46,116 nt of DNA from the IMG/VR virus record IMGVR_UViG_3300010354_000150, positions 1 to 46,116 of that record. One strand, written 5' to 3'. Shown one piece after another: positions 8,078 through 46,002 of the stretch. A model generated the notes under the pieces. That model saw nothing but the letters and a program-made list of their open reading frames with translations, was not told the origin of the DNA and searched no databases. The stretch's first letter is position 1, and each line of letters starts with the position of its first letter. The translations under genes and the position numbers were made by a program. The stretch comes from a virus.

Positions 8078-8083
8078 GGTCAT

Positions 8084-25107: not shown

Positions 25108-28100
25108 GTCGTCTAGGTAAAAAGCCAGCAGAAAAAATTGCAACAAAGGTAAAAAATGTAAACTTATTACCTAATATTTTCAATACAGAGCCTAACCAAA
25201 AAATGTTAGACTCTACATTGGATGTAATGACCAGCAAAGGTCAACTGTTGCCGTTTAAAGAGACTTATGGAAATAGAACCGCGACTAATAAAACCGACGA
25301 ATTTTTTAAAGTAGAAGCCGATCCTGTTCGTAGGGAAAGCCAAGCCAGTAACATGCTGGTATTAAAAAATCAAAATGGTGACTATCTCGACAAAGTAAGT
25401 TATCTAGATATTGAAAATTATTTTACTGTTAAGGGCGCCCGACTAGTTGACGGAGTATTGTTAGATAAAAATATTAATGTATTAAATCTGCCAGTGTCTC
25501 CTAGCATGATTACAGATTTTAACCTTTATTATTGGTTGCCTGACGATTTACCTGCATGCAGAATACATTTAAACTCGGCAAAGTTCGACATAGAAAATGA
25601 TCTAATCGGTCGTCAATATGTAACTGTACAGGATGACATCACCACAACACAGCTTCGATTACAAACTGGCATGGCTGTATATTTTACAGGTGTTGTAGAT
25701 GATTTTTATAAAACTACTGACTTGTCTTCACCTAGGATTTTCTTAGTCTATGGTGTCGGGGAATCAATTAAGTTAATTGAAAAGTCTCGACTAGAAAAAA
25801 GAATTCCATTAGAATACTTGTATAAAGTTCCTTATGACGACAACTTTACTAATGATTTGTACGATGGCACAAATTCAATTACTGACATTGAATATGTAGT
25901 ACAAGAAAATTACACAGTTAACGGCAATAACTGGCAAGTAGCCAATCATTGGTATCACATTAGTGTTATAAGAGCCGTTGCTAAATTTTTAAATATCACT
26001 GTCGAAACAATTGCACGCCCCGAGCTAAAAGCCAAGCGTCCCATTATTTGTTTTGATCGATCGATTAAGTTATTTGATTGGCCAACACAGGTTATCGCTG
26101 AAATTAAAACAATGCTACCTGGAGATAAAACTCGATACCAGGGTAAAACATTCGTAACTGACCTGTACGGTTACAATTTACAGCACGGCGACAAATTAGT
26201 ATTTGAAAATTTGCCAGGAATTTATTTGTGTACAGAAACAGGCACCGGGTTTGAATTTAATTACTCGGGTCATAGTGCTGAAGATGATGGTGCATTAATC
26301 GTTGCAGATAGTACAAAAAAATATCATCAGGTTGTATTTAAAAACGGCCGTTGGAAATTTGCACAAACTAAAACTGAAAAAAATCAAACACCAAAATTTG
26401 AATTTTATTTAAGCGACGGCACTGAATTAAGTTCTTACGCAGAAATTAATTATGCTGGTGCAACTGTTTTAGGATTTAAAGACGGCGACACTTTCGATCC
26501 AGTACTTCAACGCACAGTTGATGCATCCGGAATATTAATTGATAAGCCTTCAGTAACCGGCGAAATCAGTCCCCATCAATTAAAATTCAGCATCGATATA
26601 GACAGTGAATTTTTCTACCCAGATTCAACAACAGGAGAAAAAATTTACATACGCGGCCCATATGGCTACAAATATGATAATAAAATTATTCCCTTTTATC
26701 AACCTAGACTAGGACTGGATTTTACTAAGCAAATTCAAGATGTCTTAGTATCAAAGCCAGATGACGAAGCATGGTCAGCTAACATTGATCCAACCGTAGC
26801 AGGCTTTAACAAAATTCATGTGTTCTACGACAGTAATAATCAATACAAAATTTATTTTGAGCTTGAACGCTACGGTTTAGTTAAGTTTTCTACTAAGCGT
26901 TTCCATAACTTTAAGTATTTCAATGGTTTATATGACAACGAATATTGGGATCTAGCATCATGGAATCATGACGAAGATAGCTTGGAACAGATATTACCTC
27001 TAGTGTCCGGCGGCCGTGTGCAGATTATTTGTCATCAGTTACCTGAACCGATTACTTTTTATAAATCTGAGATTGTCAATAATATTACACGACCGGTTGC
27101 TTTACCTGGCAATATAATTTCAAACAATGGCATTACGAATGGTGTTATTGAATTAGATTTATCGTTTAGCATTTTGTCTGGCGGTAGCTATGTCGATAAT
27201 CCATTGTCAGCAACTGATACATTTTTGTGGTTTACCCTTGGCGGCCAATATCGAACAGCCGTAGTTAAATCTATCGAAAACTGGTACTTCATACAAAATG
27301 TATTTTTAATGGACTACAAAAAACCTTTATACGAAAACTACGACTATACTATAAGCGATTTTACAGAAGATGACGGCACTATTAGTTACTTTAAGAAAAT
27401 TACTGAAACTAATAATCTGTTCAAGAAAACTAAAGCAGGCGACAAATTAGGCATCAGTTCTATTATTGCCGACCCTGTTAGTCGCACAGCGCCGTTGTCA
27501 TTGACAGCTAATCCATTAAACGAAACTTTTGATGATCTGTCTTATTACAGTTTATTTGAACATGAAACAAATATCAAAGCCAACTCTGCTAACCATAGAA
27601 AATATATCGATCCTGAAACTCTATTGTTAACAGCGCAATTAGGCGGCGGCACCATTATCAAACACGGCGACACATTGTCCAAAGCGGCAATTACCGCAGT
27701 AAACTTGCCATATGATTTTAGTGAAATTGTTGTCAAGCAAGGCAAGCATTACGATATGTTTTTAACAAGATTAAAAGCAGAATTGGATAATGTTATTAAT
27801 AATAACGACTATAGTCAATATTCATCACTGGAGATTTTAAATCTTGCATTAAAAAATATTTACAATGTTATTGCCAGCGAGTCAATGTTTTGGTCGCACA
27901 GTAATATGATTGGCTGGGGGTCTGCAGGAACAGAGTATACTGAAGTAGACTTTACAGTAGACTCATCACTGGTAGTTAAATTAACCGATATTGATTTGTC
28001 AGACATTAGTCATCGTACCGGCCGTGAAACAATACTGCACATAACACATAATAACCGTGTATTAATTAGAAATGTTGACTATAGACTTACATCTAGAGTT

Positions 28101-31100
28101 AATAGAGACGAATATTCTCACATAAGATTTGCAGCAGCATTTGATGGCGCCGAAGTAAACATCAAACAGTGGTACAGTGATTTTAAATCTCTAGTGCCTG
28201 CAAGTTTAGCTAAAATTGGTCTGACTCCAGTTTATCGTCCTGAAATCTATCTAGACGGCACTTACTACAGCAATGCTTACTTTTTAATTAGACATGACGG
28301 CACAAGATATTATTTACAAGACGGTGTTGACAGCAATCAGTATCCTGTCAACTTAGTTGATCAGTATCTTTATGAATATGAAAAAGCAGTTTGGAGCAGC
28401 ATCGCTCGAGATGTAGAACAGAATAATCAAAGAGAATTACTAGAAAATCAACCAGGCTATTTTAGACAGCGTGCTAAATCATGGACAGAATCCAGAGAAG
28501 TTGTTAACAATGAAACTAGACAATGGTTAATTGAAAACAATATCTTTACTATGAACAATAGTGCAGCCGATGCTACCAATGGATTTACACTAAGATATCA
28601 ACTAGGCACCGGCGACGGCGATGTAGTTGTTGGGTCATGGCGTGCTATTTACAAGTATCTATACGACACTGACAGACCTCATAGCCATCCTTGGGAAATG
28701 CTAGGGTATAGTGTTAAACCAGACTGGTGGGATATATTCTACAGTTGGACAGTTGGCTGGAAAAGAACTCTATTAGAAAAAGCATTACGAATCGGTAATG
28801 TTGCTAATCCTATACTTGGAACTACAAAGAATTATCTAACTTTACGCAAAGACATTTTAATTGGTCCGATTGTTGATGGTACAGGAAATACTTTAGAAGT
28901 AACAGAAACTTATCTGCCAGGATTTGACTATACTGGCGGCGTTATTCGAATTAACGACGAGTTTTTTACCTATACTGGTTTCGATTCATCTGCTGGTTAT
29001 ACTAAATTTCTCGGAGTGCAAAGAGCGATTTATAATTCTACACCAGTTAGACATAGAATTAATTCTACAGTGAGACAAGTAGGATTTATAGAATCAAATC
29101 CAGCATTTGCTAGAATAACTGATGTTGCTGACCCTGAACGATTCCCGGTAACATCAACCGGCGATTTGATGCCACCATTGGATTTACCATGGTTGAATAT
29201 TGATGTGCTAGATGTTGATTCGGACTGGACATTGGGAGATATTGGCTCAATAGAACATGTATTTTTAAATAGCCAGCGCGGCCTTGCTGCCGAAATCAAA
29301 CGACTATACTTGATGTCTCCTGCACAGTATGTAAACTTAAACTGGGTGCCTGGCCAGACTATAACTAATGCTTGGAAAAACAAGATCGACAGAACCACTG
29401 AATTCTGGTTAAACGGCAAAATTGAGCATGATTATCATAGAAAAGTTGTCGACGACCAGGTTACATACACTGGTGGTATGGAAAGTTTGTTCATTGAGTT
29501 CTGCGTGTTAAACAACAAAGACTATGAAACCGGTGTCATTGGCAAGTTTTATAATCCGGAAGTTAAGAAAGAGTTTTTATTAAACGGCTTTGCTAATAAA
29601 GAGAATGTTAGAATTCAAAGTACTAGCTTGAATAATAATCACAGTACTTTGTTTGTTCCGGAAGAAAATTATAGTGTACGCACAGTTAAACATTATACTG
29701 AACGCGAAATGTACTCTTCGGCTATAAGAATCATTTACAATGACAGCGGTTATAGTATTAATGGTTTTGTTGCCGAAGCCGGCATGTTCCCTTATTTTGA
29801 ACCTGCAAGCGGATCACCCTCTGTGTCTAGATCTATTGGCAATACTACTTTTAAAGAAAAAACAAGCTATGGAAATGAAGTCAGGTACATCGAATACGGC
29901 ACTATAATTTCTAATAGACAAGAAATTTATGATTTGCTAATTGGTTATGGAAAATATTTAGAAAGCATTGGTTTTGTTTTCGAAGAACCCGAAGCCGGCG
30001 ATATCAATGATTGGCAACTAGCTGCTAAGAAGTTTGTATTCTGGAGTAATGATAAGTTAAAGCCAGGTAGCTATATCGACTTAAATCCTGGTGCCGATGC
30101 AATTATCATTCGAGGAGTATTAGGCCAGCTAGATAACTTAGAAGGTACTAATGAAAATGTCGGCCAGATAGTTAATAGACTTGGTCAGCCTTTATTCAGT
30201 AAAGACCTACTAGTAAAAAGAGAAAGCAATGCTTTAACTATTAAAGCTAAAAATAAGTCCAATAATATCTATGGAATTAAACTAAGCTTCTCTGCCTACG
30301 AGTCTGTGGCACATCTAGATCCTGCTAGCGAGTTTAATGACATTTATTTTGATCCAGCCCGCTGTGTTAATAAATTAAGTTTTATATTAGGCGGAAAAAG
30401 GAGCCAAGATTGGGACGGCACATATTTTGCACCAGGTTATGTATTTAATGAACAGCAGTTAATGCCTAACTTAGATACAATGTCTGATTTAGGCCGAGGC
30501 CTTCTTGACATTGAAAATACTATATCTGATTCTACTATTGTCGAAGCCAGTAGAAATCAGTTCGGCTTGAATAGAAATCCTGAACTTCGCCAATTATTCT
30601 TATTAGAAGACAATGAAGTTTCTTTCAAGAATGCTATCACTTTTAACAAAGGTAGTAAGCGAGTTTTTGATAGCCTACAGCCATTAACTCATCCCAGTGG
30701 TAGTTATACTGTTCCCTACGAAGAATATATGGTTCGTACCGGTGAAATGGGCAATGTAGAAAATATCGAATATTATGAATTTGAATTAAGCTCGGCCGAT
30801 ATACAGTCAGATACTCAGCTAATCAAGTTTACTGACTCTATAGATGTCGACAACAATATACTACAGATTAAATCTAACAGTAATCGTTGGGTACATCGTC
30901 CATATAATAAAAATTTAGAATTTGATTATCTAGATAGATCATACGCTGATTTAAAAACAGCAGGCCCGATTATAACAGGCGACACTGATTATTCTGTAAA
31001 TAACTTAACTGAACTAGAGAATCTTTATGAAGAGCTCGGCGACATATGGAATATAAATCCGTTCTTTGCACAGTCATCTTATAAAGTCAATAGTCTTGTT

Positions 31101-34100
31101 CGTTACGACGGTGTACTGTATTTTGCCAGTAAAGAACTTAGATCCGATCAATGGACATCGTTAACTAATGTAGCAATTATTGGTACTGGCGGTCAATTCA
31201 GTTGTGATTCTACAATTATCAAAGTCGGGCAGTTTGTTTATATTAGCGGAACCTTATCCGGTTCCGGTGCAGGCACTATATCTGGTTATGCTAATACTGC
31301 TAAAAAATATTGGGTCGTGTCAACGAACGGATACAATCAATTCGTATTATCCGAAACCCAGGGCGGTTTAGCAGTAACAACTACTGCTGGCAAAACAACA
31401 GGTCTAAAATTTAATGATGTTCAAACAATAATTAACGACCACTTTGTTGAAATTGACGAACCATGGTTGCCAAACATTTATGTTCGTAATTACTATAGAC
31501 CTAATCCCAACCTTACTAGCAGCGATCGCAGTGCCTTTAGTCCCGGCACTTGGCAAGTTTTACAAATGATTGATCGACAGCTAGGTGTTGTGGAAGCCTG
31601 TCCAGGTATTACAGATATCAGCAAAGCTCGCATCACTGTTAATAAACACCATAATTTAGAAGCAGGCGATTATGTTGTAATAGTAAATGCCAATACCGAA
31701 GGGTCGAGCGTCAACGGTATATGGCAAGTAAATGCTGTTGACCTTGATAATCCTACTAGATTCTTTGTCGATACTAGAATCGTAGAAAATATTAAAACGG
31801 GTAAAGTATTTTTATTAAAGCCAATACGCTTTAAAAATAACCTTGAATTATCACTAGCTACTGGTTCCTCGGCTGACGAAAATAATTATGTATGGAAAAA
31901 GAAGTATAATCCTTTTACTAATATCATTGGATCGACTGCCCTAGAATTAGTGCCAAGTCCTAGCGGATATGACAGAACATATCCTATTGTTATTGTTGAC
32001 GATGGTTTAACTGCAAATCCACCCGCAGCAACTTATGATTATGGCAACTACAAAGTTTATTCTATAATAGACGGCGTAGTTAGTGCAACACCTGTTAAAC
32101 AAGAAACGCTACCTGTTGATCCTAGTACTATCGAACATCTTGTAGTCTATGACTATGTTCAGAACAAAACAGTAGCTAAATTAGAATTATTTGATCCTAA
32201 GAAACTACTAATACCTGATGTACTTAAAAAAGACATCGATGTTATTAGTCGTGTAGATCCGGCCAAATATAATCGCACAACTGATCCTTTCAAGAGCATC
32301 TATACCAGTTTAGGCTGGTACGAAGAATTTGTGGGTCGTCGTTGGTGGGATACTAGTACTACAGTTTTCAATGACTATGAAAGCGTTGATGAAATCACTA
32401 GATCTAAATATTGGGGTACAACAGTTGATAATCAACTGCCAGAGATCTACGAATGGACTAAGAGTACAGTACATCCTAGCCAATGGGCAGCTTTAGTTGC
32501 CAGCAAAGAAACAGTATTTGGTCAGTTAGCCACTGGCGAAGTTTATATAGATCAAACTTTAAACACAGACAATTATCACTGGGTCGAGGAAACTGACTAT
32601 GTTAATGGCCGTGCATATACAACTTATTATTTCTGGGTTAAGAATAAATCAACAGTCGCCACAGAAATACAAGGTCAAAGAGTTTATACAGTAGAACAAT
32701 TAAGTAAAACAGTTCTAAACCCTAGCAGTTTAGGAATTGCTTGGTGGGCGCCAATCACAGGAAACACTATTTTAGTTAAAGGAATCGAGCCTTACCTAAA
32801 AAGTTCTAGTACTGTGTTACAAATTAAAAAGAAATCCAAGGGCGAAGAAAAACATCAGCAATGGTTATTTGTTAGCGAAAACAACACAGTAAAAACAATA
32901 CCCGAGTGGATACATCGTAGATTCCGTGACAGTATCAGCGCACATATTTTCTATCAAATAGTAGATACATACCGCAGCTGGGAACCTGACGAAGTTTATA
33001 ACCAATCTGATATTGTTATGTATGGCGGTGGAGCAGTTCGCTTCTTTAGCTGTAAAATCAATAATTTAGTAGGTGTGCCTCCGCTAACATCGTCGGGTCA
33101 GGTTGATACAATTCGCTGGCAACCATTGCCGGATTTATTTGAATATTTGCCCGATGAACGCGGCACTTGGGATGGCTACTTCTGGGATCGTATCGGCTGG
33201 GAGTGGGATGAAAACAACAAGTTCTATTATTATAGAGAAAAATACATTCCCGATCAACAAAACTTACATCCATTTAATAGATTAGGTAACGAAGTTCGCC
33301 CTTATCCTAAAAACTGGTTCGATGATGTAGTTGAAGCTCGTAGAGTGTTTATTAAAAAACTCAATGAAATCTTACTAAACATCAATGTAACTGCTTTACC
33401 AGCTTGGCCTACTACACGGCTAAAGGACACAGAGTACACAGTTGGCGACGAAACTTACGACATGAATCAGTACTGGCAATATGTTGATTATCGCAGTAGC
33501 GACTATGATTCAGCAAAAGCAATTGACACTGTAATAAATGGTTTACCTGGTCTTTATACACTGTCGATTAGTGCCGGCAGCTATGTTAAGATAGTTAACA
33601 GTTCTACGGATTATAGCATTTATCGCAAAAACGATGACGGTAGTTACGAAATAATATATAAGAAAAACGGAACTATTCAGTTCCTCGAGGACATATACAG
33701 CGAATCTAGCCTTAGCCAATGGGACGGAATAGCCTGGGACGAAACTGGCACCGGTTGGGACAATGACATTAACTCAGTATATAATGCCATAGTTGACAGT
33801 CTCAGAGAAGAAATATTTGTAGGTAATAATATGAATTATTATTCGATTATTATTTGCAGTATGTTTAGATATGTATTGTCAGAGCAAGTTAATGTAGATT
33901 GGCTAGCTAAATCTAGCACAATTGAACCTGTGAACTTGATATCTAAGTCAATTGAGGCCAACAACTACTTGAAACGAGACGAAGTAACTGTATTGTTAGA
34001 GTTCTTTAATAGTGTCAAGTCTTATCATGATAAGATACGCAGCGCAACCATTAACAAAGAAGTTCGTGAACAGGCAGATATTGAAGTGGCTGAAACTATC

Positions 34101-34241
34101 GTAGTTCGAGATACCCCGACATTCTCAACCACAGGTTCGACGGCCGATATTCCAGTAGAAATAACCGGCGGAGTATATGTTTCTGTGTCGTCATTGGGCT
34201 CAAATGTTGATATTCCAGTGTCGGTGACCAGCAGTCAATGA
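25104..34241 (+). CDS. Giant baseplate wedge protein in gp7 position
   Basis: A 3045-aa protein (T4 gp7 is 1032 aa), translationally coupled to gp6. The N-terminus (LLPNIFNTEPNQKMLDSTLD, then GNRTATNKTDEFF) recurs in large baseplate proteins of marine T4-like phages. Long beta-rich regions rich in Tyr, Trp and Asn follow. A module INDEFFTYTGFDSSAGYTKF then LGVQRAI (about residues 1284-1310) matches one in gp6. Trp-rich repeats such as DRIGWEWDEN and WDGIAWDETGTGWD suggest carbohydrate-binding or short structural repeats near 2690-2890. The C-terminus has paired repeats STADIPVEITGG / SNVDIPVSVTSS. The gp7 role is inferred from synteny, gp25-gp6-this gene; a gp7-gp8-gp10 fusion is possible. 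Confidence 0.6.
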   Translation: MSRLGKKPAEKIATKVKNVNLLPNIFNTEPNQKMLDSTLDVMTSKGQLLPFKETYGNRTATNKTDEFFKVEADPVRRESQASNMLVLKNQNGDYLDKVSYLDIENYFTVKGARLVDGVLLDKNINVLNLPVSPSMITDFNLYYWLPDDLPACRIHLNSAKFDIENDLIGRQYVTVQDDITTTQLRLQTGMAVYFTGVVDDFYKTTDLSSPRIFLVYGVGESIKLIEKSRLEKRIPLEYLYKVPYDDNFTNDLYDGTNSITDIEYVVQENYTVNGNNWQVANHWYHISVIRAVAKFLNITVETIARPELKAKRPIICFDRSIKLFDWPTQVIAEIKTMLPGDKTRYQGKTFVTDLYGYNLQHGDKLVFENLPGIYLCTETGTGFEFNYSGHSAEDDGALIVADSTKKYHQVVFKNGRWKFAQTKTEKNQTPKFEFYLSDGTELSSYAEINYAGATVLGFKDGDTFDPVLQRTVDASGILIDKPSVTGEISPHQLKFSIDIDSEFFYPDSTTGEKIYIRGPYGYKYDNKIIPFYQPRLGLDFTKQIQDVLVSKPDDEAWSANIDPTVAGFNKIHVFYDSNNQYKIYFELERYGLVKFSTKRFHNFKYFNGLYDNEYWDLASWNHDEDSLEQILPLVSGGRVQIICHQLPEPITFYKSEIVNNITRPVALPGNIISNNGITNGVIELDLSFSILSGGSYVDNPLSATDTFLWFTLGGQYRTAVVKSIENWYFIQNVFLMDYKKPLYENYDYTISDFTEDDGTISYFKKITETNNLFKKTKAGDKLGISSIIADPVSRTAPLSLTANPLNETFDDLSYYSLFEHETNIKANSANHRKYIDPETLLLTAQLGGGTIIKHGDTLSKAAITAVNLPYDFSEIVVKQGKHYDMFLTRLKAELDNVINNNDYSQYSSLEILNLALKNIYNVIASESMFWSHSNMIGWGSAGTEYTEVDFTVDSSLVVKLTDIDLSDISHRTGRETILHITHNNRVLIRNVDYRLTSRVNRDEYSHIRFAAAFDGAEVNIKQWYSDFKSLVPASLAKIGLTPVYRPEIYLDGTYYSNAYFLIRHDGTRYYLQDGVDSNQYPVNLVDQYLYEYEKAVWSSIARDVEQNNQRELLENQPGYFRQRAKSWTESREVVNNETRQWLIENNIFTMNNSAADATNGFTLRYQLGTGDGDVVVGSWRAIYKYLYDTDRPHSHPWEMLGYSVKPDWWDIFYSWTVGWKRTLLEKALRIGNVANPILGTTKNYLTLRKDILIGPIVDGTGNTLEVTETYLPGFDYTGGVIRINDEFFTYTGFDSSAGYTKFLGVQRAIYNSTPVRHRINSTVRQVGFIESNPAFARITDVADPERFPVTSTGDLMPPLDLPWLNIDVLDVDSDWTLGDIGSIEHVFLNSQRGLAAEIKRLYLMSPAQYVNLNWVPGQTITNAWKNKIDRTTEFWLNGKIEHDYHRKVVDDQVTYTGGMESLFIEFCVLNNKDYETGVIGKFYNPEVKKEFLLNGFANKENVRIQSTSLNNNHSTLFVPEENYSVRTVKHYTEREMYSSAIRIIYNDSGYSINGFVAEAGMFPYFEPASGSPSVSRSIGNTTFKEKTSYGNEVRYIEYGTIISNRQEIYDLLIGYGKYLESIGFVFEEPEAGDINDWQLAAKKFVFWSNDKLKPGSYIDLNPGADAIIIRGVLGQLDNLEGTNENVGQIVNRLGQPLFSKDLLVKRESNALTIKAKNKSNNIYGIKLSFSAYESVAHLDPASEFNDIYFDPARCVNKLSFILGGKRSQDWDGTYFAPGYVFNEQQLMPNLDTMSDLGRGLLDIENTISDSTIVEASRNQFGLNRNPELRQLFLLEDNEVSFKNAITFNKGSKRVFDSLQPLTHPSGSYTVPYEEYMVRTGEMGNVENIEYYEFELSSADIQSDTQLIKFTDSIDVDNNILQIKSNSNRWVHRPYNKNLEFDYLDRSYADLKTAGPIITGDTDYSVNNLTELENLYEELGDIWNINPFFAQSSYKVNSLVRYDGVLYFASKELRSDQWTSLTNVAIIGTGGQFSCDSTIIKVGQFVYISGTLSGSGAGTISGYANTAKKYWVVSTNGYNQFVLSETQGGLAVTTTAGKTTGLKFNDVQTIINDHFVEIDEPWLPNIYVRNYYRPNPNLTSSDRSAFSPGTWQVLQMIDRQLGVVEACPGITDISKARITVNKHHNLEAGDYVVIVNANTEGSSVNGIWQVNAVDLDNPTRFFVDTRIVENIKTGKVFLLKPIRFKNNLELSLATGSSADENNYVWKKKYNPFTNIIGSTALELVPSPSGYDRTYPIVIVDDGLTANPPAATYDYGNYKVYSIIDGVVSATPVKQETLPVDPSTIEHLVVYDYVQNKTVAKLELFDPKKLLIPDVLKKDIDVISRVDPAKYNRTTDPFKSIYTSLGWYEEFVGRRWWDTSTTVFNDYESVDEITRSKYWGTTVDNQLPEIYEWTKSTVHPSQWAALVASKETVFGQLATGEVYIDQTLNTDNYHWVEETDYVNGRAYTTYYFWVKNKSTVATEIQGQRVYTVEQLSKTVLNPSSLGIAWWAPITGNTILVKGIEPYLKSSSTVLQIKKKSKGEEKHQQWLFVSENNTVKTIPEWIHRRFRDSISAHIFYQIVDTYRSWEPDEVYNQSDIVMYGGGAVRFFSCKINNLVGVPPLTSSGQVDTIRWQPLPDLFEYLPDERGTWDGYFWDRIGWEWDENNKFYYYREKYIPDQQNLHPFNRLGNEVRPYPKNWFDDVVEARRVFIKKLNEILLNINVTALPAWPTTRLKDTEYTVGDETYDMNQYWQYVDYRSSDYDSAKAIDTVINGLPGLYTLSISAGSYVKIVNSSTDYSIYRKNDDGSYEIIYKKNGTIQFLEDIYSESSLSQWDGIAWDETGTGWDNDINSVYNAIVDSLREEIFVGNNMNYYSIIICSMFRYVLSEQVNVDWLAKSSTIEPVNLISKSIEANNYLKRDEVTVLLEFFNSVKSYHDKIRSATINKEVREQADIEVAETIVVRDTPTFSTTGSTADIPVEITGGVYVSVSSLGSNVDIPVSVTSSQ

Positions 34242-34263: not shown

Positions 34264-34271
34264 TATAAATA
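34264..34271 (+). promoter_or_regulatory. T4-type late promoter
   Basis: An exact TATAAATA 21 nt before the ATG at 34293, with AAAGGAA at 34281-34287 as Shine-Dalgarno. It starts a second late unit for the peripheral tail genes. Confidence 0.7.
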
Positions 34272-34292
34272 AATATTGGTAAAGGAATTACA

Positions 34293-34814
34293 ATGCTTTT
34301 TTCTTCGAATGTGGGCCAAGGCCTTGCTGAAAATACTTTTGTTAACTTGAAAATTATGCTAGTCTACGAAGGTAGCCAACCTAACATTCTGGATTTTGTT
34401 GTTAATTTCAATGATTATAAGTGGACAGGCAGCAAAGTATTGCAGGCGTATGTAAATGTTGATTTATTAGGCTCTTCGTTTAGTGCAAAAAGATATAGAA
34501 TTGCAAAAAACAGTGCTTCCGGTACTGACTACGGAGCTTTTTCTAAAAAGTCAGGAACAGCAGCGTGGGCAGTTTTAATACACGAAGATCTTATCAGCGT
34601 TGACAACTCCAATAGGCTTATCAGTGTTGATTCATCCAGTGGAACAATAAATTTTCTAAGAAATATTACTGACACAGATGCTTTTATGATAGTTCCTGTA
34701 AGTAATCTGTCTGATAATGGCGTTTTACGATTCAGTAATCTAAACTTTACTCATCCGCATGTTTCGGGCAGCGATGCAATTGAAACATTTGTTCTAGAAT
34801 TTATAAGCGAATAA
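34293..34814 (+). CDS. Probable virion structural protein
   Basis: A 173-aa beta-rich protein with no cysteines or charged helices: QPNILDFVVNFNDYKWTGSK, RYRIAKNSASGTDYGAFSKK, FMIVPVSNLSDNGVLRFSNL. The composition and setting between the giant wedge protein and the modular protein suggest a small tail or fibre-attachment subunit. I do not recognise the family. A consensus late promoter and Shine-Dalgarno precede it. Confidence 0.6.
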   Translation: MLFSSNVGQGLAENTFVNLKIMLVYEGSQPNILDFVVNFNDYKWTGSKVLQAYVNVDLLGSSFSAKRYRIAKNSASGTDYGAFSKKSGTAAWAVLIHEDLISVDNSNRLISVDSSSGTINFLRNITDTDAFMIVPVSNLSDNGVLRFSNLNFTHPHVSGSDAIETFVLEFISE

Positions 34815-34819
34815 TATAA

Positions 34820-37800
34820 ATGAAAAAAATTGAATTAAGTGGCGGCCTTATCGACTTAGCAATTAATGATTTGCTAAACAAATATAAAGGATCCGCACCA
34901 ACCTATTCTAGTCATTTATATTTTATGAAAGGCACAAAGCCCGGAGATATTGATCCTAATATGAATCCGGCAACATATAGAGCCAGTGACAGACTAGTTC
35001 ATTGGACCGGTGATCAAGTTGAAATTGATATCCGAACAGTTAGCACTACTGGTGCTTATGCAGATCGTTCAGGTGTAGTAACATGGTTCCATTGGTTTTA
35101 TATTAACAACAGCGGCCAAGTTGAACGCCAAATGATAGGAACTGTGGGTGATATTGGATCAGATATAGTATTATCTAACACCAATATTGTAGCCGATTAT
35201 GAATATAGCATTCAAAGTTTAAGCTTTGATTTAAACAGAGTACACGAGTATTTGTCAGTGCCTGTTGCCCCAACGCCAGCACCTACACCTGCGCCTACAC
35301 CTGCGCCTACACCAGCACCAACTGGCGCTCCTACACCTGCGCCTACTCCAGCACCAACTGGCGCTCCTACCCCTGCACCTACCCCTGCTCCAACTGGCGC
35401 TCCTACTCCTGCACCTACTCCAGCACCTACTCCAGCACCAACTCCAGCACCAACTCTTGCACCGTGCCCGCCTGAAGGCACTCCTGCTACATCACTCATC
35501 ACAACTGTATTTGACGGTGATGGCAACTGTTTCATTAAAACAACTCCTCGAACATACACGGGTTTACGGGACCCGCAAGGAAATTGCTATTTAAGTCTAG
35601 GAACACCTACATACGAGCCGTGCCCAGTAGCACCAACACCTGCTCCTACACCTGCTCCTACACCTGCTCCTACACCTGCTCCTACACCTGCTCCTACACC
35701 TGCTCCTACACCTGCCCCGACCGAAGCGCCCACACCAGCGCCTACACCAGCGCCCACACCTGCTCCAACTCCTTATCCCGAAACATGCCCAGAGGCTGGA
35801 ACATTGTTTATTGGACCTAGCGGCCAGAGTAGAGTTTGCTTAGAGATTACATTTGATGCCGGCACCGGCAAATGCTATCAAAGTTGTTTCCAGTCGTTCT
35901 ATACAGGTAATAAGATCGAGGCCGGCCCGGGTGTTGACCCAGAAGATGTTGGACAGTGCGAGCTTGTAAACGGCCCGTCGACTACTGAAGAAGTTCCATG
36001 TCCGCCGACACCAGCGCCAACTCCTGCTCCAACTCCTGCTCCAACTCCTGCTCCAACTCCTGCTCCAACTCCTGCTCCAACTCCTGCTCCAACACCAGCA
36101 CCGACTGCCGCGCCATGTCCAGCTGCTGGAACTTTATTTGGCGGCCCAGCATGCGTGATAGTTGTGGATTCGCAAAGCGGCTTATGCACTCAAAGATGTC
36201 AGCAGTATGTGTATACAGGATTTAAGGACGAAGACGGTGAATGCGACATTGCAGTCAATCCTGCACTTACAACTAACTCTCCGGCTCCGTGCCCGTGTCC
36301 TCCGGCCGGAACTAATTATAACGGAAATGGGGAATCGTGGTGGGAGCCTGCTCCTAACGGCGAAAAAATGATTTGTAGTGGTATAGTGAGAACTCGTGAA
36401 GATGGCAGTTGTTATGTAGTATGCGATCAATACGAATATACCGGAGTAACAGATGCCGAAGGAAATTGTTTATATGTGCCAACTAATGAGGTAACAAAAA
36501 CTGTTCCATGTCCACCGACACCTGCGCCAACACCTGCGCCAACACCGGCTCCGACACCTGCGCCAACTGCCGCTCCGTGTCCGCCGGCCGGCACCTTACA
36601 TGTTGGCCCTAGTGGTAAAACTAGAAATTGTTTAGAAATTCAATTTGATGCAGGAACTGGCAAGTGCTATCAAACTTGTTCGCAGTCCTTCTATACAGGT
36701 AATGTCATTCAGGCAGGTCCGGGTGTTGACCCAGAAGATGTTGGAGAATGCGAACTCGTTGCCGGCCCGTCGACTACTGAAGAAGTTCCGTGCCCAACCC
36801 CTGCTCCGACTGCTGAACCGCCAACACCTGCTCCAACACCTGCGCCGACACCAGCTCCTACTGAAGAGCCATGTCCACCAGCTGGAACATTATTCACAAC
36901 CACAACAACACCCAGCCCTGAGTATCCGGATGGAATTGTTAGAAAAGAATGTGTTGGTGTACCAATAACTGCCGATGGATTTTGTTATATACCTTGTGTA
37001 GAAAAGCGTTATACTGGGTCCCGCAATTCCGAAGGAGTATGTACCACTTATAATGTACCCATTGATGATGTTAAGGTAGTAGATTGTCCGCCAACACCTG
37101 CACCAACACCTGCACCAACACCTGCACCGACAGAATCATTCTGTCCACCGGCTGGCACACCTTATGTAGGCACAGGCGGCGGTTGGGAAACTGATCCTGG
37201 ATCAGGCGATATTGTATTCTGTCAAACTCAAGTAATTGTTGATACAGATGGCACTTGTTATAGATCTTGCACTCGTTATCAATACACCGGTATTATAAAT
37301 GAAATTCAAGGTACATGCGAAACAGAGCCATATGGAGCCGAAGTAAGAATTCCAGCATCATGTCCGCCAACACCTGCTCCGACACCAGCTCCAACGCCAG
37401 CTCCGACGCCAGCTCCGACACCAGCTCCAACGCCAGCACCTACTGAAGAGCCATGCCCATCATATGGAACTTTATTCGTAACCCCTGGAGGATCAAGAAT
37501 CTGCGGAGAAACCAACTTTGATGTTGGCACAGGTAAGTGCTATCAAGATTGTTTCCAATATTTCTATACCGGCTCTCGGGATCCAAACGGAGATTGCGGC
37601 ATTTATGCAGGACCTAGCACACCTCTCGATACACCTTGCCCACCAACACCTGCACCAACACCTGCACCAACACCTGCGCCAACTGAGTCGCCATGCCCGC
37701 CGCCCGGCACTGTATTTAATGTCACTACTACTACAATCAACTATCAAGATGGAACATGTGTAGATCAAGTAACTACGGTACTATACACCGGTGACTATGC

Positions 37801-38218
37801 CGACGGCGAATGTACTACATATGACGAGTATGACGAAACAACATATAATTGTGCACCAACTACATCAACACCTGCTCCGACACCAGAGCCAACACCTGCT
37901 CCAACACCAGAGCCAACACCTCAACCAACACCGCCAACTCAACCAACACCTCAACCAACTCCTGAGCCAACACCAGAGCCAACAGCGCCAACTCAACCAA
38001 CACCGCCAACTCAACCAACACCTCAACCAACTCCTGAGCCAACACCAGAGCCAACACCACCGTGGGCTCCTCCTGGTCCTCCAACACCGCCGACACCGCC
38101 AACACCGCCGACACCGCCAACACCGCCGTCGGGTCCTCCGACACCGCCGACACCGCCAACACCTCCACCGGTACCCCCATGGGCGCCGTATTCCCCATCT
38201 ACTGAAGGTGGTGGCTAA
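34820..38218 (+). CDS. Modular Cys-rich / Pro-Ala-Pro-Thr repeat virion protein (putative adhesin)
   Basis: 1132 aa. Residues 1-148 form a globular domain that probably attaches to the tail ([31 protein letters not shown]). Nine Cys-rich modules of about 50-75 residues follow from residue 216, each opening C-P-x-x-G-T and closing P-C-P. Seven have six Cys with consensus GTGKCYQxCxQxxYTG...GxC. The first and last have four. Modules are joined by (PAPT)n linkers of 3-13 units; modules 3 and 4 are joined directly. The tail from ~1014 is [10 protein letters not shown] repeats ending EGGG. Modules 2 and 5 are near-identical. Disulfide-knotted beads on stiff Pro-rich rods fit a receptor-binding or decoration role. 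No known family is recognised. Confidence 0.75.
35641..35712 (+). repeat. Six identical tandem copies of a 12-bp unit
   Basis: TGCTCCTACACC is repeated six times without a mismatch, encoding part of the (PAPT)n linker before module 2. Use of one synonymous spelling throughout indicates recent expansion by slippage or unequal exchange. Confidence 0.95.
35786..36003 (+). repeat. Duplicated Cys module, copy 1 (module 2)
   Basis: This module matches that at 36578-36792 over its whole length, with long identical DNA tracts such as GTTGACCCAGAAGATGTTGG and CCGTCGACTACTGAAGAAGT. The pair looks like a recent duplication or gene-conversion event. Confidence 0.85.
36020..36091 (+). repeat. Six identical tandem copies of a different 12-bp unit
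   Basis: ACTCCTGCTCCA is repeated six times exactly, encoding the (PAPT)n linker before module 3. The peptide is the same as in the 35641-35712 array but the codons differ, so each array expanded on its own. Confidence 0.95.
36578..36792 (+). repeat. Duplicated Cys module, copy 2 (module 5)
   Basis: Partner of 35786-36003. Differences are concentrated at the start ([12 protein letters not shown] versus [12 protein letters not shown]) and at a few third positions. Confidence 0.85.
38082..38127 (+). repeat. 9-bp tandem repeat encoding (Pro-Thr-Pro)n
   Basis: About five units of ACACCGCC(A/G) encode PTPPTPP in the C-terminal tail of the modular protein. A second short array follows the PPSGPP interruption. 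Confidence 0.85.
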
Positions 38219-38238: not shown

Positions 38239-38246
38239 CATAAATA
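38239..38246 (+). promoter_or_regulatory. T4-type late promoter, 5 nt before start codon
   Basis: CATAAATA, one base from TATAAATA, then 5 nt and ATG at 38252. No Shine-Dalgarno is present, so a leaderless transcript is expected. Confidence 0.6.
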
Positions 38247-39757: not shown

Positions 39758-41572
39758 ATGACTGTGACCAGTGGCACAAAAATAACTGCGGCCGAATATA
39801 ACGCATTGGCTATCGCTGTTAATAAAGTTTTTTGTGATAATTATGCAACAACTATTCCTTCATCTAGTTCTGTTAACAGAGCTTACGGATGGGGACAAGA
39901 ACCTGTTGCGGTAACTAATTTATCTGCTGGAGATTTAGCATCTGGCGAAAAAATTACTGCCGCTGATTGGAATGAATTAATTGATCGTATTAAATTAGGT
40001 GCTACACATGTTGGATTATCTTCGGCGTTGACTCGTGTGTCTGCCGGTGATCGTATCACTGCTAATTTGCAGAATACACTTGAAACTACATTAGCTAATA
40101 TCGAATCTATTAAAAATACCGCTCCTTCCGGACAAATTACAACAACTGTGTTAACGCCAACTAGCCATTCATCAGGGTTTACTACTAGTTTAGTTTTTAG
40201 AAGCACAATATCATTTGACAGTTACAAGAAAGCTCGTTATTTCTTTAACAGCGGAAGTTCAATTAGGTTTGCATTAGCCAAATCTGGTGGTGGGGCAGAA
40301 GATTCTGCGTGGCAATTAGTTTATGATTCATTAAGCGCCATGACTCTATCGTTAGGAGATTTTACTGCAGGTGGATCGGCTACAGTTCAAGGCAAAGGAT
40401 TTGAAGATTTAACCTTTGTTGATCAGAATCTGGCCAGTATTATTTCTGGAGCAAAGACAATCAATGTTACCGGAAAAATTACTAATAGCAGCGATACAAT
40501 GGTATCGGATTCTGCTCAAGCAGTAAAAATTATTATTACATTTAGCATCAGCCAAAGCACAGCAACTGCCAGCACAGGAACTCACACCTTGACCGCATCT
40601 AGTAATAAAGCTGCGAACATTTCTGCTGCTAGCGGAAGTGTAATTAGTTTTGCAATCGTAGGACCGACTTATACGGCAGCAGTACAATCTTATAATAATT
40701 CTGTAAGTCCAAGTCCAAGTCCAACTCCGCCAAGTCCAACTCCAGGTCCAACACCTGCTCCTACTTTCTCTGTGCCTACACTAGAAATTGTTAACCCGTC
40801 TGATGCTACATTGTCTTTCGTTATGCCTGCTGCTACATGGAGCAGCACTAAAACAGTTACATTAAGAAATGTAGGCAGTTCTACTCTAACTATTTCTAAC
40901 ATCGCAATTTCCGAAAATAATGTGACAGCTCAGGGCGAATGGGGCTGGGTTACTTCACCTACATTCCCTAAGAGTGTTGCTCCGGGAGACACGGCTTCAT
41001 TTACAATTCGATATCAAGGCCCTTCAGAAGGCAATTTTACAAATAGTATAACAATATCTTCTAATGACCCAACTGGAAGTAAAACTATATTTGTATATCA
41101 AACCATTACGGCTAGCACATTCGGAATCGCACCGAATACTACTAGTGTAAACGAAGGTGACACCATTACTTGGACAGCAACAACTTCAGGCGTAGCCGAT
41201 GGCACAGTATTGTATTGGTCTATTGGCGGCGATGGCATAAACAATCCAGTTTCTTACGATGATTTTGTTCCGCCTTTCCCTCTAAGTGCGATTGCCGGAT
41301 CAGTTACAATAACAGGCAATACTGGAACAATTTCTTTAACATTAGCAACTGATACTGGCTATGATGGTGATCCAGAATCCATGATTCTGCGTTTGCATTC
41401 AGGATCATCATCTGGTCCTGTGTTAGCTACATCTGCAACAGTTTATGTTAACGACACAGCTACAGCATCTCCGACTCCTGCACCTACAGCACCATCTTCG
41501 CCAACTCCAGCGCCAACCACTGGTCCAGGACCTGGTTTACCGCCAGGCCCGGGCGAAACTGAAGAGCCATAA
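39758..41572 (+). CDS. Virion surface protein with Ig-like domains and Pro/Thr linkers
   Basis: 604 aa. The N-terminal 115 residues hold three copies of a short motif: GTKITAAEYNAL, GEKITAADWNEL and GDRITANLQNTL. A beta-rich structural part follows (YFFNSGSSIRFALAKSGGGA). A linker SPSPSPTPPSPTPGPTPAPT near 311-332 leads to an Ig-like/HYDIN-type domain (TVTLRNVGSSTLTISNIAIS; GNFTNSITISSNDPTGS) and a second Calx-beta-like domain (SVNEGDTITWTATTSG). The C-terminus is another Pro/Thr-rich tail ending GPGETEEP. The PAPT linkers and EEP ends are shared with the modular Cys-rich protein. A long, jointed surface fibre or decoration is the best guess. Confidence 0.6.
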   Translation: MTVTSGTKITAAEYNALAIAVNKVFCDNYATTIPSSSSVNRAYGWGQEPVAVTNLSAGDLASGEKITAADWNELIDRIKLGATHVGLSSALTRVSAGDRITANLQNTLETTLANIESIKNTAPSGQITTTVLTPTSHSSGFTTSLVFRSTISFDSYKKARYFFNSGSSIRFALAKSGGGAEDSAWQLVYDSLSAMTLSLGDFTAGGSATVQGKGFEDLTFVDQNLASIISGAKTINVTGKITNSSDTMVSDSAQAVKIIITFSISQSTATASTGTHTLTASSNKAANISAASGSVISFAIVGPTYTAAVQSYNNSVSPSPSPTPPSPTPGPTPAPTFSVPTLEIVNPSDATLSFVMPAATWSSTKTVTLRNVGSSTLTISNIAISENNVTAQGEWGWVTSPTFPKSVAPGDTASFTIRYQGPSEGNFTNSITISSNDPTGSKTIFVYQTITASTFGIAPNTTSVNEGDTITWTATTSGVADGTVLYWSIGGDGINNPVSYDDFVPPFPLSAIAGSVTITGNTGTISLTLATDTGYDGDPESMILRLHSGSSSGPVLATSATVYVNDTATASPTPAPTAPSSPTPAPTTGPGPGLPPGPGETEEP

Positions 41573-42188: not shown

Positions 42189-43580
42189 GTGGACATCAAT
42201 AAAGATATCATTGGTTACAAAGACAAAATCAATGCTGTGAGTCCAAGCTTCTGCTTGGCAAAATGGAAACAAGTAACACTACATCTGCAACTTGGACAAA
42301 CACACAGTTGTCACCATCCAGTAGCACATAGAATTCCCTTAGAGGAAATTGCAATTGATGCCAGCGCATTGCATAACACTAAGTTTAAAAAAGAACAGCG
42401 TAAGCAGATGCTAGAAGGCACTCGTCCTGCCGAGTGTGACTATTGCTGGAAAGTAGAAGACAGTGGCCCTGATGCTATTAGTGATCGAATCTATAAAAGC
42501 TACGATGTTTGGGCTCAGCCATATTTTGATCAAGTTAAAAATATGCCGTGGGATCAAAATGTTAATCCCAGTTATCTTGAAGTAAGTTTCAGCAATGTCT
42601 GTAACTTTAAGTGTAGTTACTGCGGTCCACAAATCAGCAGTATGTGGATGGAAGAAATTGAAAAGTATGGTCCATATCCTACTGGCCGTAGCTATAACGA
42701 TATAGAATGGATGAAGCGTGATGGTGTCATGCCTATACCGCACAACCAGCATAATCCTTATGTGGAAGCATTTTGGAAATGGTGGCCCAGTGTTTATCCC
42801 GAACTAAAGCATTTTAGAATTACCGGCGGCGAACCTCTGCTGAGTAAAGATACATTTAAAGTCCTGGATTACATTATCGATAATCCTAATCCCGAAATAC
42901 ATTTTAGTGTTAACAGTAACTTATGTGTGCCGTCAAAAATCTTTGAAAAGTTTTTAGAGAAAATTAAAATCATCTGCGGTGAAAACAAAGTTAAAAAGTT
43001 TAAAGTTTTTACCAGCTGCGACACATATGGCGCCCAAGCAGAATATATCCGTGACGGCTTGAACTACGATCTTTGGAAAGCAAACATACATAGATTGCTT
43101 AGTGAAGTCCCCGGCTGTACTGTTACTATCATGAGCACTTACAATGCCTTAAGTATCTTTAGATACACTGACTTTTTAAAGGACATGCTGGAGATCAAAA
43201 ATCAGTATGGTGGCCATGGTAAAACTCATGCTCCGTTAATAGTTGATGTGCCATACCTTCGACATCCCGGACATCAAGCTATCTTTATCATGCCCAATAA
43301 GTATGCAGAAGTAATCTATGATCAAGTTACTTTTATGTACGAAAACTTAGAGCATCCTGAATGGTATGGCACCAGCAACCGTGGATTCTTCCAGTGGGAA
43401 GCAGACAAGTTTAAGCGTATCTACGAATTGATGATCTACAAAGAAGAACATAAAAAGGTCACTGCTTATCACAAGGACTTTGTTAACTTTGTTGATGAGC
43501 ACGATCGCCGTCGCGGCACTAACTTCTTAAAGACCTTCCCTGAAATGGAAGAACTATATAAGCAGTGGAAATATGGCTAA
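42189..43580 (+). CDS. Twitch-type radical SAM protein
   Basis: A 463-aa protein. CNFKCSYC at residues 138-145 (Cys138, Cys142, Cys145) binds the 4Fe-4S cluster that cleaves S-adenosylmethionine. HFRITGGEPLLSKDTFKVLD supplies the GGE motif. Additional Cys (Cys41, and CDYC at 83-86) precede the core, as in twitch-domain radical SAM proteins found in aquatic phages and bacteria. No substrate is known; peptide or sugar modification is possible. The GTG start at 42189 is chosen because AAAGG lies 6 nt upstream; the ATG at 42175 is in another frame. It overlaps the first glycosyltransferase-like gene by 8 nt. Confidence 0.85.
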   Translation: MDINKDIIGYKDKINAVSPSFCLAKWKQVTLHLQLGQTHSCHHPVAHRIPLEEIAIDASALHNTKFKKEQRKQMLEGTRPAECDYCWKVEDSGPDAISDRIYKSYDVWAQPYFDQVKNMPWDQNVNPSYLEVSFSNVCNFKCSYCGPQISSMWMEEIEKYGPYPTGRSYNDIEWMKRDGVMPIPHNQHNPYVEAFWKWWPSVYPELKHFRITGGEPLLSKDTFKVLDYIIDNPNPEIHFSVNSNLCVPSKIFEKFLEKIKIICGENKVKKFKVFTSCDTYGAQAEYIRDGLNYDLWKANIHRLLSEVPGCTVTIMSTYNALSIFRYTDFLKDMLEIKNQYGGHGKTHAPLIVDVPYLRHPGHQAIFIMPNKYAEVIYDQVTFMYENLEHPEWYGTSNRGFFQWEADKFKRIYELMIYKEEHKKVTAYHKDFVNFVDEHDRRRGTNFLKTFPEMEELYKQWKYG

Positions 43581-44358
43581 GATAGCAGTTTGCATCAACG
43601 GTCAACCTCGTACCTGGGAACGCTGTGTTGATTCCTGGTTAAATCTATTCAGCAGATTTGAAGACGCTGAAGTAGACTTCTTTTATCACATGTGGGACTT
43701 TAATAGTTTGCCACAGATTGTCAACGACTTAACTCCGCAACCGGTTAGTGCCGAAGAATTTCAGCGTCTACATAATAAGTTACTGCCTAAAAAACATCTA
43801 ATAGAAGGTTATGCTAAAAGCATGAAAGTCATTGAGGACATAAGGCAAGCAGGGGACCGCTATGAAATTAGCGGCGGCACTCCTGTGCATTGGGCCGGTA
43901 GTCAGTTTTATAGTGCCATGCGAGCAGCACACTTAAAGCGCGAGTATGAAATAGAACAAGGCTTCCAATACGACATTTGCTTTAGACTACGCACAGATTT
44001 ATACTTTGGCGAGTTTGCTATAGATAATTTTATTGGAGAATTTGAATTGCCTGAACCTAATACCATCTATAGTTGCCACAACGGACCTGCAGATGTTTTT
44101 CCATGGTTTAGAATCGGCGATATATTTTACTACAGTGACAGCAACACCTTTGACAAACTAAACGAGTTTTATCGTTGGTTACCAATTATAGGTATTAAGC
44201 CTTTTGGCCATGACAATAGTCCTCCGGAAATTCCTTTTGCCTTTTACATACAAATGATGTTAATAAAGAATCGCAGCAAGACTGCTGACCCTAAAGTAAT
44301 GCGTACCGAAGAATACGCAGAGATTAAAGGAGGACTTGGCGGCCATGAGCTTACCTAA
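43573..44358 (+). CDS. Putative glycosyltransferase-like protein, paralogue 1
   Basis: A 261-aa protein starting KIAVCINGQPRTWERCVDSW, with VDFFYHMWDFNS near 35-46 and a DICFRLRTDLYFGEF segment near 135-149. This layout (GQPRTW at the N-terminus, DxFxHxWD, then YDxxxRLRxDxxF with an acidic pair that could hold a metal-sugar donor) marks a family often annotated as glycosyltransferase in aquatic phages and bacteria. It shares the layout with the next three genes. Activity is inferred; the acceptor could be host surface glycan or virion protein. Confidence 0.6.
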   Translation: MAKIAVCINGQPRTWERCVDSWLNLFSRFEDAEVDFFYHMWDFNSLPQIVNDLTPQPVSAEEFQRLHNKLLPKKHLIEGYAKSMKVIEDIRQAGDRYEISGGTPVHWAGSQFYSAMRAAHLKREYEIEQGFQYDICFRLRTDLYFGEFAIDNFIGEFELPEPNTIYSCHNGPADVFPWFRIGDIFYYSDSNTFDKLNEFYRWLPIIGIKPFGHDNSPPEIPFAFYIQMMLIKNRSKTADPKVMRTEEYAEIKGGLGGHELT

Positions 44359-45130
44359 TAATTCCCGTATTGCTGTTATATTTTGTGGCCAGTTACGAAC
44401 TGCTGCTAGATGCTATCCTAACATACTAAACTTTATAGGATCTTGGCTGCCGCAGACTGATTTTTTTGTCCATACTTGGGACTACGATACTATTGCAGGA
44501 CATAACCTAATGGGCAGAGATAGATCATTATTAGATCAAAAAATTCCTATAGATTATACTGTTGTTGATAAAGTAAAAGAAGTTTATAATCCAATATCAA
44601 TGGAAATTGAAAGTTTAGATGCTTTTTATAAAAAAGGTTACAACTTTATTCCGTGGATATATAGCTTCATTAAAGCATATGAAGTATGTAAAAAATACGA
44701 ACAAGAAAAATATAAAGGACATCGTTACAGGTTAATTTGCAAGTTCCGAACTGATACATTATTTCCTCCCGGGCACTCACTTGACAGTGAGATAAAATAC
44801 ATAGGTGGTAAAGATCAATATTTTTATACTTGTGATAATTGGAACGGAATGCCTAACAAAGTCGAAGACATAAAATGGATAGCCAAACCTGTTACTATGG
44901 ATGCCATAGAAGAGTGGTGTTGGGAAAGATTACGAACAGATAATATTACAGAGAGACACTTAATGGATTGGCAAGAACACTGTAAAGTGTTTATGGATGA
45001 AAAGAATATCGCTGTTCATGCTTGGCAATACAATAAACTTTATCATTATAGAGATTTACATGAGCAAATGAATGTTGATATCAATGACATCGAAATGATC
45101 GAGCAAGTAAACACATTGAGGGGCAAATGA
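44345..45130 (+). CDS. Putative glycosyltransferase-like protein, paralogue 2
   Basis: A 261-aa protein from the ATG at 44345, preferred over an upstream TTG because AAAGGAGGA at 44327-44335 is an excellent Shine-Dalgarno. It has RIAVIFCGQLRTAARCYPNI, FFVHTWDYDT and RLICKFRTDTLFPPGHSLDS, aligning with paralogue 1. The middle is Tyr/Lys-rich (YEVCKKYEQEKYKGHRYR). Its start overlaps the upstream stop region and its own stop overlaps paralogue 3 (ATGA). Confidence 0.6.
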   Translation: MSLPNNSRIAVIFCGQLRTAARCYPNILNFIGSWLPQTDFFVHTWDYDTIAGHNLMGRDRSLLDQKIPIDYTVVDKVKEVYNPISMEIESLDAFYKKGYNFIPWIYSFIKAYEVCKKYEQEKYKGHRYRLICKFRTDTLFPPGHSLDSEIKYIGGKDQYFYTCDNWNGMPNKVEDIKWIAKPVTMDAIEEWCWERLRTDNITERHLMDWQEHCKVFMDEKNIAVHAWQYNKLYHYRDLHEQMNVDINDIEMIEQVNTLRGK

Positions 45131-46002
45131 GAATAGCCGTAGTTTTTAGCGCACAAGTTCGCACAGCGTTATACGCTGTACCTAATATTAAACGATTTAT
45201 CGGCGACTTATGGCCACATTGTGATTTCTTTTGTCATACTTGGCTTAAAGATACTGATAAGCTATATGGTTATGGTATAAGTCTGTTGGAAAATAAAGTA
45301 ACAGTAGATCAAGCTACTGTCGACGAACTTCATAAGATTTATAATTTTAAAAAATTTAAAATGGAGAACTGGGAAGAAGTAGCATTAGTTAAACCCTATG
45401 ATCCTCCTTTGTTTTATTCTTGGATCGAAAGCATCAAGTTTAAAAAAGAATACGAACAAGAACATAATTTTAAATATGATTATGTCGTTAAGCTAAGATT
45501 AGACAACATTTATTCAGACAGGATCTGTCTCCAGGACATCATCGATAAGACTGAATCAAACAGCTTGGTGGTCAACAACGTCATGTATAATGGAAGTATT
45601 GATGATTTTTTGTTTGCCAGTGATTCAACTACATCAGACAAAATGATAACGATCTATAATAGTTGGCTGAATTCAACAAAAACATATTTTGCTCAACTTG
45701 AAATACCAGATTTTTTAAAACAGGAAAATGTTAAATTAATCAGTCTGGGTATCGATACTAACGCACCTGCCGGCACCGGTAGTGATATTATTATACTGCG
45801 ATCCGTATGTTTGAACTACGATCCTCTCACTGAATTTAATAAATGCTTTGAATGCGATAAGATTTTATATTGGGGAGGCGTTGAAGAATTGCATCATGTC
45901 TGTCGCTTATCAAAAGACGAATTGTTAGATCTTGCTCGTAGAGTCAAAGCCAAGTATAATAAACTGCCTAATGTGCTGATACATTTTAAAGACGAAATAT
46001 GA
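45127..46002 (+). CDS. Putative glycosyltransferase-like protein, paralogue 3
   Basis: A 291-aa protein with RIAVVFSAQVRTALYAVPNI, FFCHTWLKDTDKLYGYG and DYVVKLRLDNIYSDRICLQD, the same three blocks as its neighbours, and a slightly longer C-terminus (ECDKILYWGGVEELHHVCRL). The conserved Gly-Gln of the first block is Ala-Gln here. Boundaries with both neighbours are ATGA overlaps, so all are made from one mRNA. Confidence 0.6.
   Translation: MRIAVVFSAQVRTALYAVPNIKRFIGDLWPHCDFFCHTWLKDTDKLYGYGISLLENKVTVDQATVDELHKIYNFKKFKMENWEEVALVKPYDPPLFYSWIESIKFKKEYEQEHNFKYDYVVKLRLDNIYSDRICLQDIIDKTESNSLVVNNVMYNGSIDDFLFASDSTTSDKMITIYNSWLNSTKTYFAQLEIPDFLKQENVKLISLGIDTNAPAGTGSDIIILRSVCLNYDPLTEFNKCFECDKILYWGGVEELHHVCRLSKDELLDLARRVKAKYNKLPNVLIHFKDEI

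Follow-up and report, generated by a model that had tools for sequence, protein, structure and literature searches.

A candidate cysteine-rich, bead-on-rod appendage protein encoded in the baseplate/fibre locus of a PA5oct-like jumbo myovirus

The appendages of jumbo phages, among them whiskers, hairs and branched fibres, have been seen by electron microscopy. Some phages also carry on the particle Ig-like surface proteins made of several small beta domains in a row, which are believed to make weak contacts with host surfaces. T4 Hoc is an example of these Ig-like domain proteins (Fraser et al. 2006, cited in PMC5259590), and hair-like whiskers occur in the jumbo phages CBB and Atu_ph07 (PMC5259590, PMC6102473); those on the CBB tail are 119 nm long and have no gene assigned to them in the paper that describes them (PMC5259590). 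The protein described here would resemble both kinds of structure: it would share with T4 Hoc and its like the small beta domains strung on a particle surface, and with the whiskers of CBB and Atu_ph07 the jumbo myovirus setting, the thin appendage and a similar length scale. It differs from the T4 Hoc type in that its modules are predicted to be three-stranded, bear cysteines, are joined by PT rods and give no Ig-domain match. We put at roughly 0.6 the probability that this protein is made late and serves as an adhesive appendage of a PA5oct-like jumbo myovirus, anchored on the virion, extended in shape and stabilised by cystines.

Gene order around an inserted gene pair

The stretch of DNA that was analysed, referred to below as the window, is a 46 kb fragment from IMG/VR. 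Comparison by tblastn with PA5oct, Vibrio phage 2.275.O and Salicola SCTP-2 recovers one collinear cluster, best for PA5oct (24-52% identity between collinear homologs), which consists of homologs of SbcC, SbcD, a late sigma factor, a gp53-like protein, a hub/lysozyme protein, gp25, a gp6-like wedge protein, a giant virion protein and gp357-like and gp358-like fibre proteins. Many of the homologous PA5oct proteins are marked ESI-MS/MS in the PA5oct record. By this synteny, which bears out the phage tail locus proposed in the initial annotation, the window is assigned to a PA5oct-like jumbo myovirus, of which it forms a baseplate/fibre locus.

The order of genes is that of the PA5oct gp355-gp360 baseplate/fibre cluster, with homologs on both sides, but PA5oct has no counterpart of two genes that lie here between the giant virion protein gene and the gp357 homolog, namely the module gene and a smaller companion (Table 1). 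PA5oct, SCTP-2, Vibrio 2.275.O and three IMG/VR relatives whose giant proteins are about 50% identical to the one here (L025, L031, L032) have no module gene between the flanking genes; the last three also lack the companion gene at the locus, the giant gene being followed directly by the gp357 homolog. Since these relatives keep the same gene order without either gene, the pair appears to be a lineage-specific insertion, or else to have been lost in the lineage of the relatives. The closest relative, a 138 kb sister contig (L024, 91% in the gp357 homolog), ends 47 bases upstream of its gp357 homolog, where one frame reads PPSPTDG-stop; this hints at a Pro-rich gene here in the sister phage too, within which the assembly may have broken. 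The giant virion protein beside the insertion (25104-34241) has 3045 aa as compared with about 3858 aa in PA5oct, its C-terminal part being shorter.

The core motif of T4 late promoters, ATAAATA, is rarer in the window than shuffling would predict (6 copies against 18 expected), and all six (2141, 8148, 21213, 34264, 34268 and 38239) are on the plus strand just upstream of tail genes. They may be read as a T4-type late promoter map of the window, which also encodes a late sigma homolog at 7220-8083. A TATAAATA-like late-promoter motif is present 18 bases before the companion gene, in the overlapping motifs at 34264-34275. The site at 38239 is shared with L024 (at 35), and L025, L031 and L032 have none at this junction.

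Evidence of domain exchange comes from the adhesin-like gene at 39758-41572 (1553-2959 in L024, 4453-5547 in L025), whose product and that of its L024 homolog are some 66-84% identical as far as about residue 315 and again 79% identical in the C-terminal tail. A PT-flanked segment between these parts has been swapped, consisting here of a choice-of-anchor D/Ig-like match and further sequence and in L024 of an unrelated, shorter sequence, and the homologs in L025, L031 and L032 have GYGY-rich inserts instead. Swapping of outer domains is commonly seen as phage adhesins evolve, and its occurrence in this gene supports a surface-binding role for the neighbourhood. The L024 homolog of the same gene is also the one other site of PAPT rods among five phage genomes and three IMG/VR relatives. 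In the window and its relatives the fibre genes are followed by radical SAM genes and several CFSGQPRTW-type genes (PHROG 13607), the latter possibly glycosyltransferase-like (42189-46002; 3565-10604 in L024 and 5987-13310 in L025).

Table 1. Features of the inserted gene pair and its flanks, in window positions
Feature	Position	Strand	Remarks
Late-promoter motifs	34264..34275	+	two overlapping, T4-type (TATAAATAAATA); upstream of inserted pair
Companion gene	34293..34814	+	173 aa, no Cys; apparently inserted together with module gene
Module protein ORF	34820..38218	+	1132 aa, ATG start, 50 Cys
N-terminal domain, aa 1-148	34820..35263	+	proposed virion anchor; PHROG 3758 match
Module 1 (M1), aa 214-269	35459..35626	+	4 Cys
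Module 2 (M2), aa 321-395	35780..36004	+	6 Cys
Module 3 (M3), aa 431-491	36110..36292	+	6 Cys; abuts module 4
Module 4 (M4), aa 492-565	36293..36514	+	6 Cys
Module 5 (M5), aa 585-659	36572..36796	+	6 Cys; modelled module, AlphaFold2 pLDDT 92.5
Module 6 (M6), aa 683-757	36866..37090	+	6 Cys
Module 7 (M7), aa 773-849	37136..37366	+	6 Cys
Module 8 (M8), aa 877-941	37448..37642	+	6 Cys
Module 9 (M9), aa 957-1013	37688..37858	+	4 Cys
Pro-rich C-terminal tail, aa 1014-1132	37859..38215	+	PEPT, PPT repeats; STEGGG end
Late-promoter motif	38239..38246	+	CATAAATA; after insertion, before gp357 homolog

Repeats, rods and the module fold

The module protein is laid out as the initial annotation had described it, in its ORF coordinates, its 148-aa N-terminal domain, nine modules and Pro-rich tail, and in its six cysteines in seven of the nine modules (M2-M8) and four in M1 and M9; the (PAPT)n linkers said to separate the modules are found generally, with the exception of M3 and M4, which abut without a linker, Cys 491 being the last of M3 and Cys 493 the first of M4. 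All 50 cysteines are within modules, residues 1-213, the linkers and the tail being free of them, and they make up 4.4% of the residues of the protein as compared with ~0.3% across neighbouring plus-strand structural genes, the true background being slightly lower. The 52 PAPT units are encoded by 27 different 12-mers with mixed third positions, which argues against simple DNA slippage and for linkers kept at the protein level. Taken as polyproline helices with 0.31 nm per residue, the linkers (250 residues) would extend up to 78 nm and the tail (119 residues) up to 37 nm, or up to about 115 nm for the two alone, with the nine beads extra.

When one module is left out, a profile made from the remaining eight picks it up in every case (E 7e-6 to 2e-23), and with these leave-one-out profiles the best of 200 shuffles per module has a score far below that of the true module; by this measure the nine modules are genuine repeats. 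Modules 2 and 5 have 80% protein identity and 77% DNA identity, and their pS of 0.56 and pN of 0.13 give a dN/dS of about 0.14, so that the modules, judged from this one comparison, appear to be under purifying selection at the protein level.

Structure prediction of one module followed by a fold search had been proposed as a check, and for module 5, with the nine modules as the alignment, AlphaFold2 returned a confident model (pLDDT 92.5, pTM 0.67) in which the module is predicted to be a compact three-stranded beta fold. Foldseek gave no convincing match to it in the PDB (best E 1.7) or BFVD (best E 0.52), none having E < 0.001 and the query TM-score being < 0.45 among the matches listed. 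The initial annotation recognised no described family, and for the module this holds, there being no credible Pfam or PDB profile match. No Ig-like sequence or fold was found in the repeated module (Pfam; Foldseek, E cut-off 0.001), unlike the neighbour gene at 39758 with its choice-of-anchor D/Ig-like match. No module relatives were detected by tblastn in phages and plasmids or by pattern and peptide in IMG/VR and GTDB, and modules 4+5 as a query, and modules 2, 5 and 8 as queries in both collections, found no related loci, in contig scans that require exact short peptides or patterns and that diverged relatives can escape. Scans of IMG/VR and GTDB genomes for module DNA by exact pattern gave 18, 13 and 74 places, which on inspection were short, out-of-frame or unrelated Cys-rich stretches. 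Other candidates were also set aside: the PDB phmmer matches of the whole protein are mainly to PT linker stretches, the NCBIfam AIDA-I match covers about 60 aa and is far under its cut-off, and the androctonin match (E 0.16), to a 23-residue Cys hairpin, is regarded as chance. A defence-system library gave no match. As far as these comparisons go, the building block does not appear among known ones, and the kind of protein, a modular phage surface protein, is a familiar one.

The N-terminal domain and a place on the virion

Over residues 30-138 the N-terminal domain matches the family PHROG 3758, named 'virion structural protein', with E 1.6e-6; the match runs over profile positions 28-137 of 140 and thus covers nearly the whole family profile. 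The member of this family in Agrobacterium phage Atu_ph07 is gp577, annotated as a virion structural protein, which is about 142 aa long, stand-alone and without Cys, and whose gene adjoins genes of large proteins, two of them with weak beta-propeller matches; the domain here, in contrast to gp577, carries nine modules and rods. A single-sequence model of the domain (pLDDT 35) gave no usable fold, and an exact short-peptide search found no related loci for the domain or for the companion gene. The companion protein matches PHROG 21569 (E 6e-4) and, weakly, PHROG 3758 (E 0.19, with 5/500 shuffles reaching its score), which is only suggestive of distant kinship with the N-terminal domain of the module protein.

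The interpretation given in the initial annotation is partly supported as a whole; for its long extended appendage the support comes from the PT rods, the match of the N-terminal domain to PHROG 3758 and the late-promoter motifs. The module protein is likely to be late and virion-attached. An alternative that we regard as unlikely, although it fares best among those considered, is a whisker or decoration of the capsid or tail shaft that serves for spacing, shielding or general adhesion and not for specific ligand binding. PHROG 3758 is filed under head and packaging, and the reach of linkers and tail as polyproline helix is close to that of the 119 nm tail hairs of CBB, a Rak2-like jumbo phage (PMC5259590). 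This agreement in length is, however, a coincidence of scale and not evidence of homology, and the module gene sits in a baseplate/fibre cluster.

Cysteines and the proposed role

The adhesive appendage that we favour would owe its stability to cystines. The cysteine count is even in every module, and C2 and C4 are missing from M1 as well as from M9, where C1, C3, C5 and C6 remain, so that C2 and C4 are most likely paired, a covariation drawn from nine paralogous modules of one protein. In module 5 the predicted hairpin places residues 20 (C2) and 36 (C4) roughly opposite each other on neighbouring strands, and C3 (32) and C6 (74) are near each other across strands 2 and 3, which leaves C1-C5 as the remaining pair. 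We therefore propose C2-C4 in the six-Cys modules together with C1-C5 and C3-C6, with the strand register reasoned from predicted strand limits and not from atomic coordinates. The beads folded by disulfides that had been suggested at the outset gain indirect support from the even counts, the joint loss of C2 and C4 and the confident compact beta model. Since phage proteins fold in the reducing cytoplasm, no disulfide would be expected to form until lysis, and this counts against disulfide-locked modules.

The same cytoplasmic assembly would favour metal, and the four cysteines common to all modules (C1, C3, C5, C6) equal the ligand number of a zinc-Cys4 site, as would be the case if the modules were metal-binding (e.g., zinc) knuckles that fold already in the cytoplasm. 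We find this doubtful, since the modules have no paired CxxC knuckles of the zinc ribbon or rubredoxin type, each six-Cys module having a single CxxxC pair (C3-C4) and its other cysteines isolated; C2 and C4 are lost jointly, as a cystine would be; and C3 and C5, as inferred from the model, are at opposite ends of long predicted strands, which is ill-suited to one metal site. Quite improbable is a non-virion late accessory protein released at lysis, e.g., a decoy or aggregation factor, for although the gene is an accessory insertion whose product is only presumed to be in the virion, its N-terminal domain matches a virion protein family, inspection by eye revealed no obvious signal peptide and homologs of virion proteins flank it on both sides.

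The module protein is thus probably a disulfide-locked adhesive appendage, for which we infer virion location, disulfides, extended shape and ligand binding. This reading draws on the collinear PA5oct baseplate/fibre locus, the late-promoter motifs flanking the insertion and the PHROG 3758 match; on the confinement of all cysteines to the modules, their even counts, the joint C2/C4 loss and the module model; and on the dN/dS between modules, the protein-level upkeep of the linkers and the domain swap in the gene at 39758-41572. Most phage tail fibres are trimeric, and the module protein has no sign of a trimer, which counts against a fibre-like appendage. We envisage that the N-terminal beta domain would attach the protein to the virion, probably in the region of the baseplate or tail, and that polyproline-type PAPT rods would space the nine beta modules along a strand of roughly 100-140 nm when fully extended. 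Two or three disulfides may lock each module, forming after the particle exits the reducing cytoplasm, and the diversified modules would each bind weakly but together give multivalent attachment, most likely to host-surface glycans, and so lengthen contact before the main receptor-binding proteins engage.

A bolder proposal, to which we give a lower probability, is that the module represents a small cystine fold of a new type and that the protein would be the first candidate, defined by its sequence, for a class of flexible whiskers or tentacles on jumbo phage particles, with Cys-locked beads on Pro/Thr rods, folding completed only after lysis and multivalent weak binding. In any case, none of the collections searched has a match to the compact fold predicted for the module. 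Should the disulfides be real, the protein would mature chemically once released, which is uncommon among phage surface proteins. A bead-on-rod protein that is defined by sequence and encoded in a jumbo-phage fibre locus would also open the question of the appendage gene to test.
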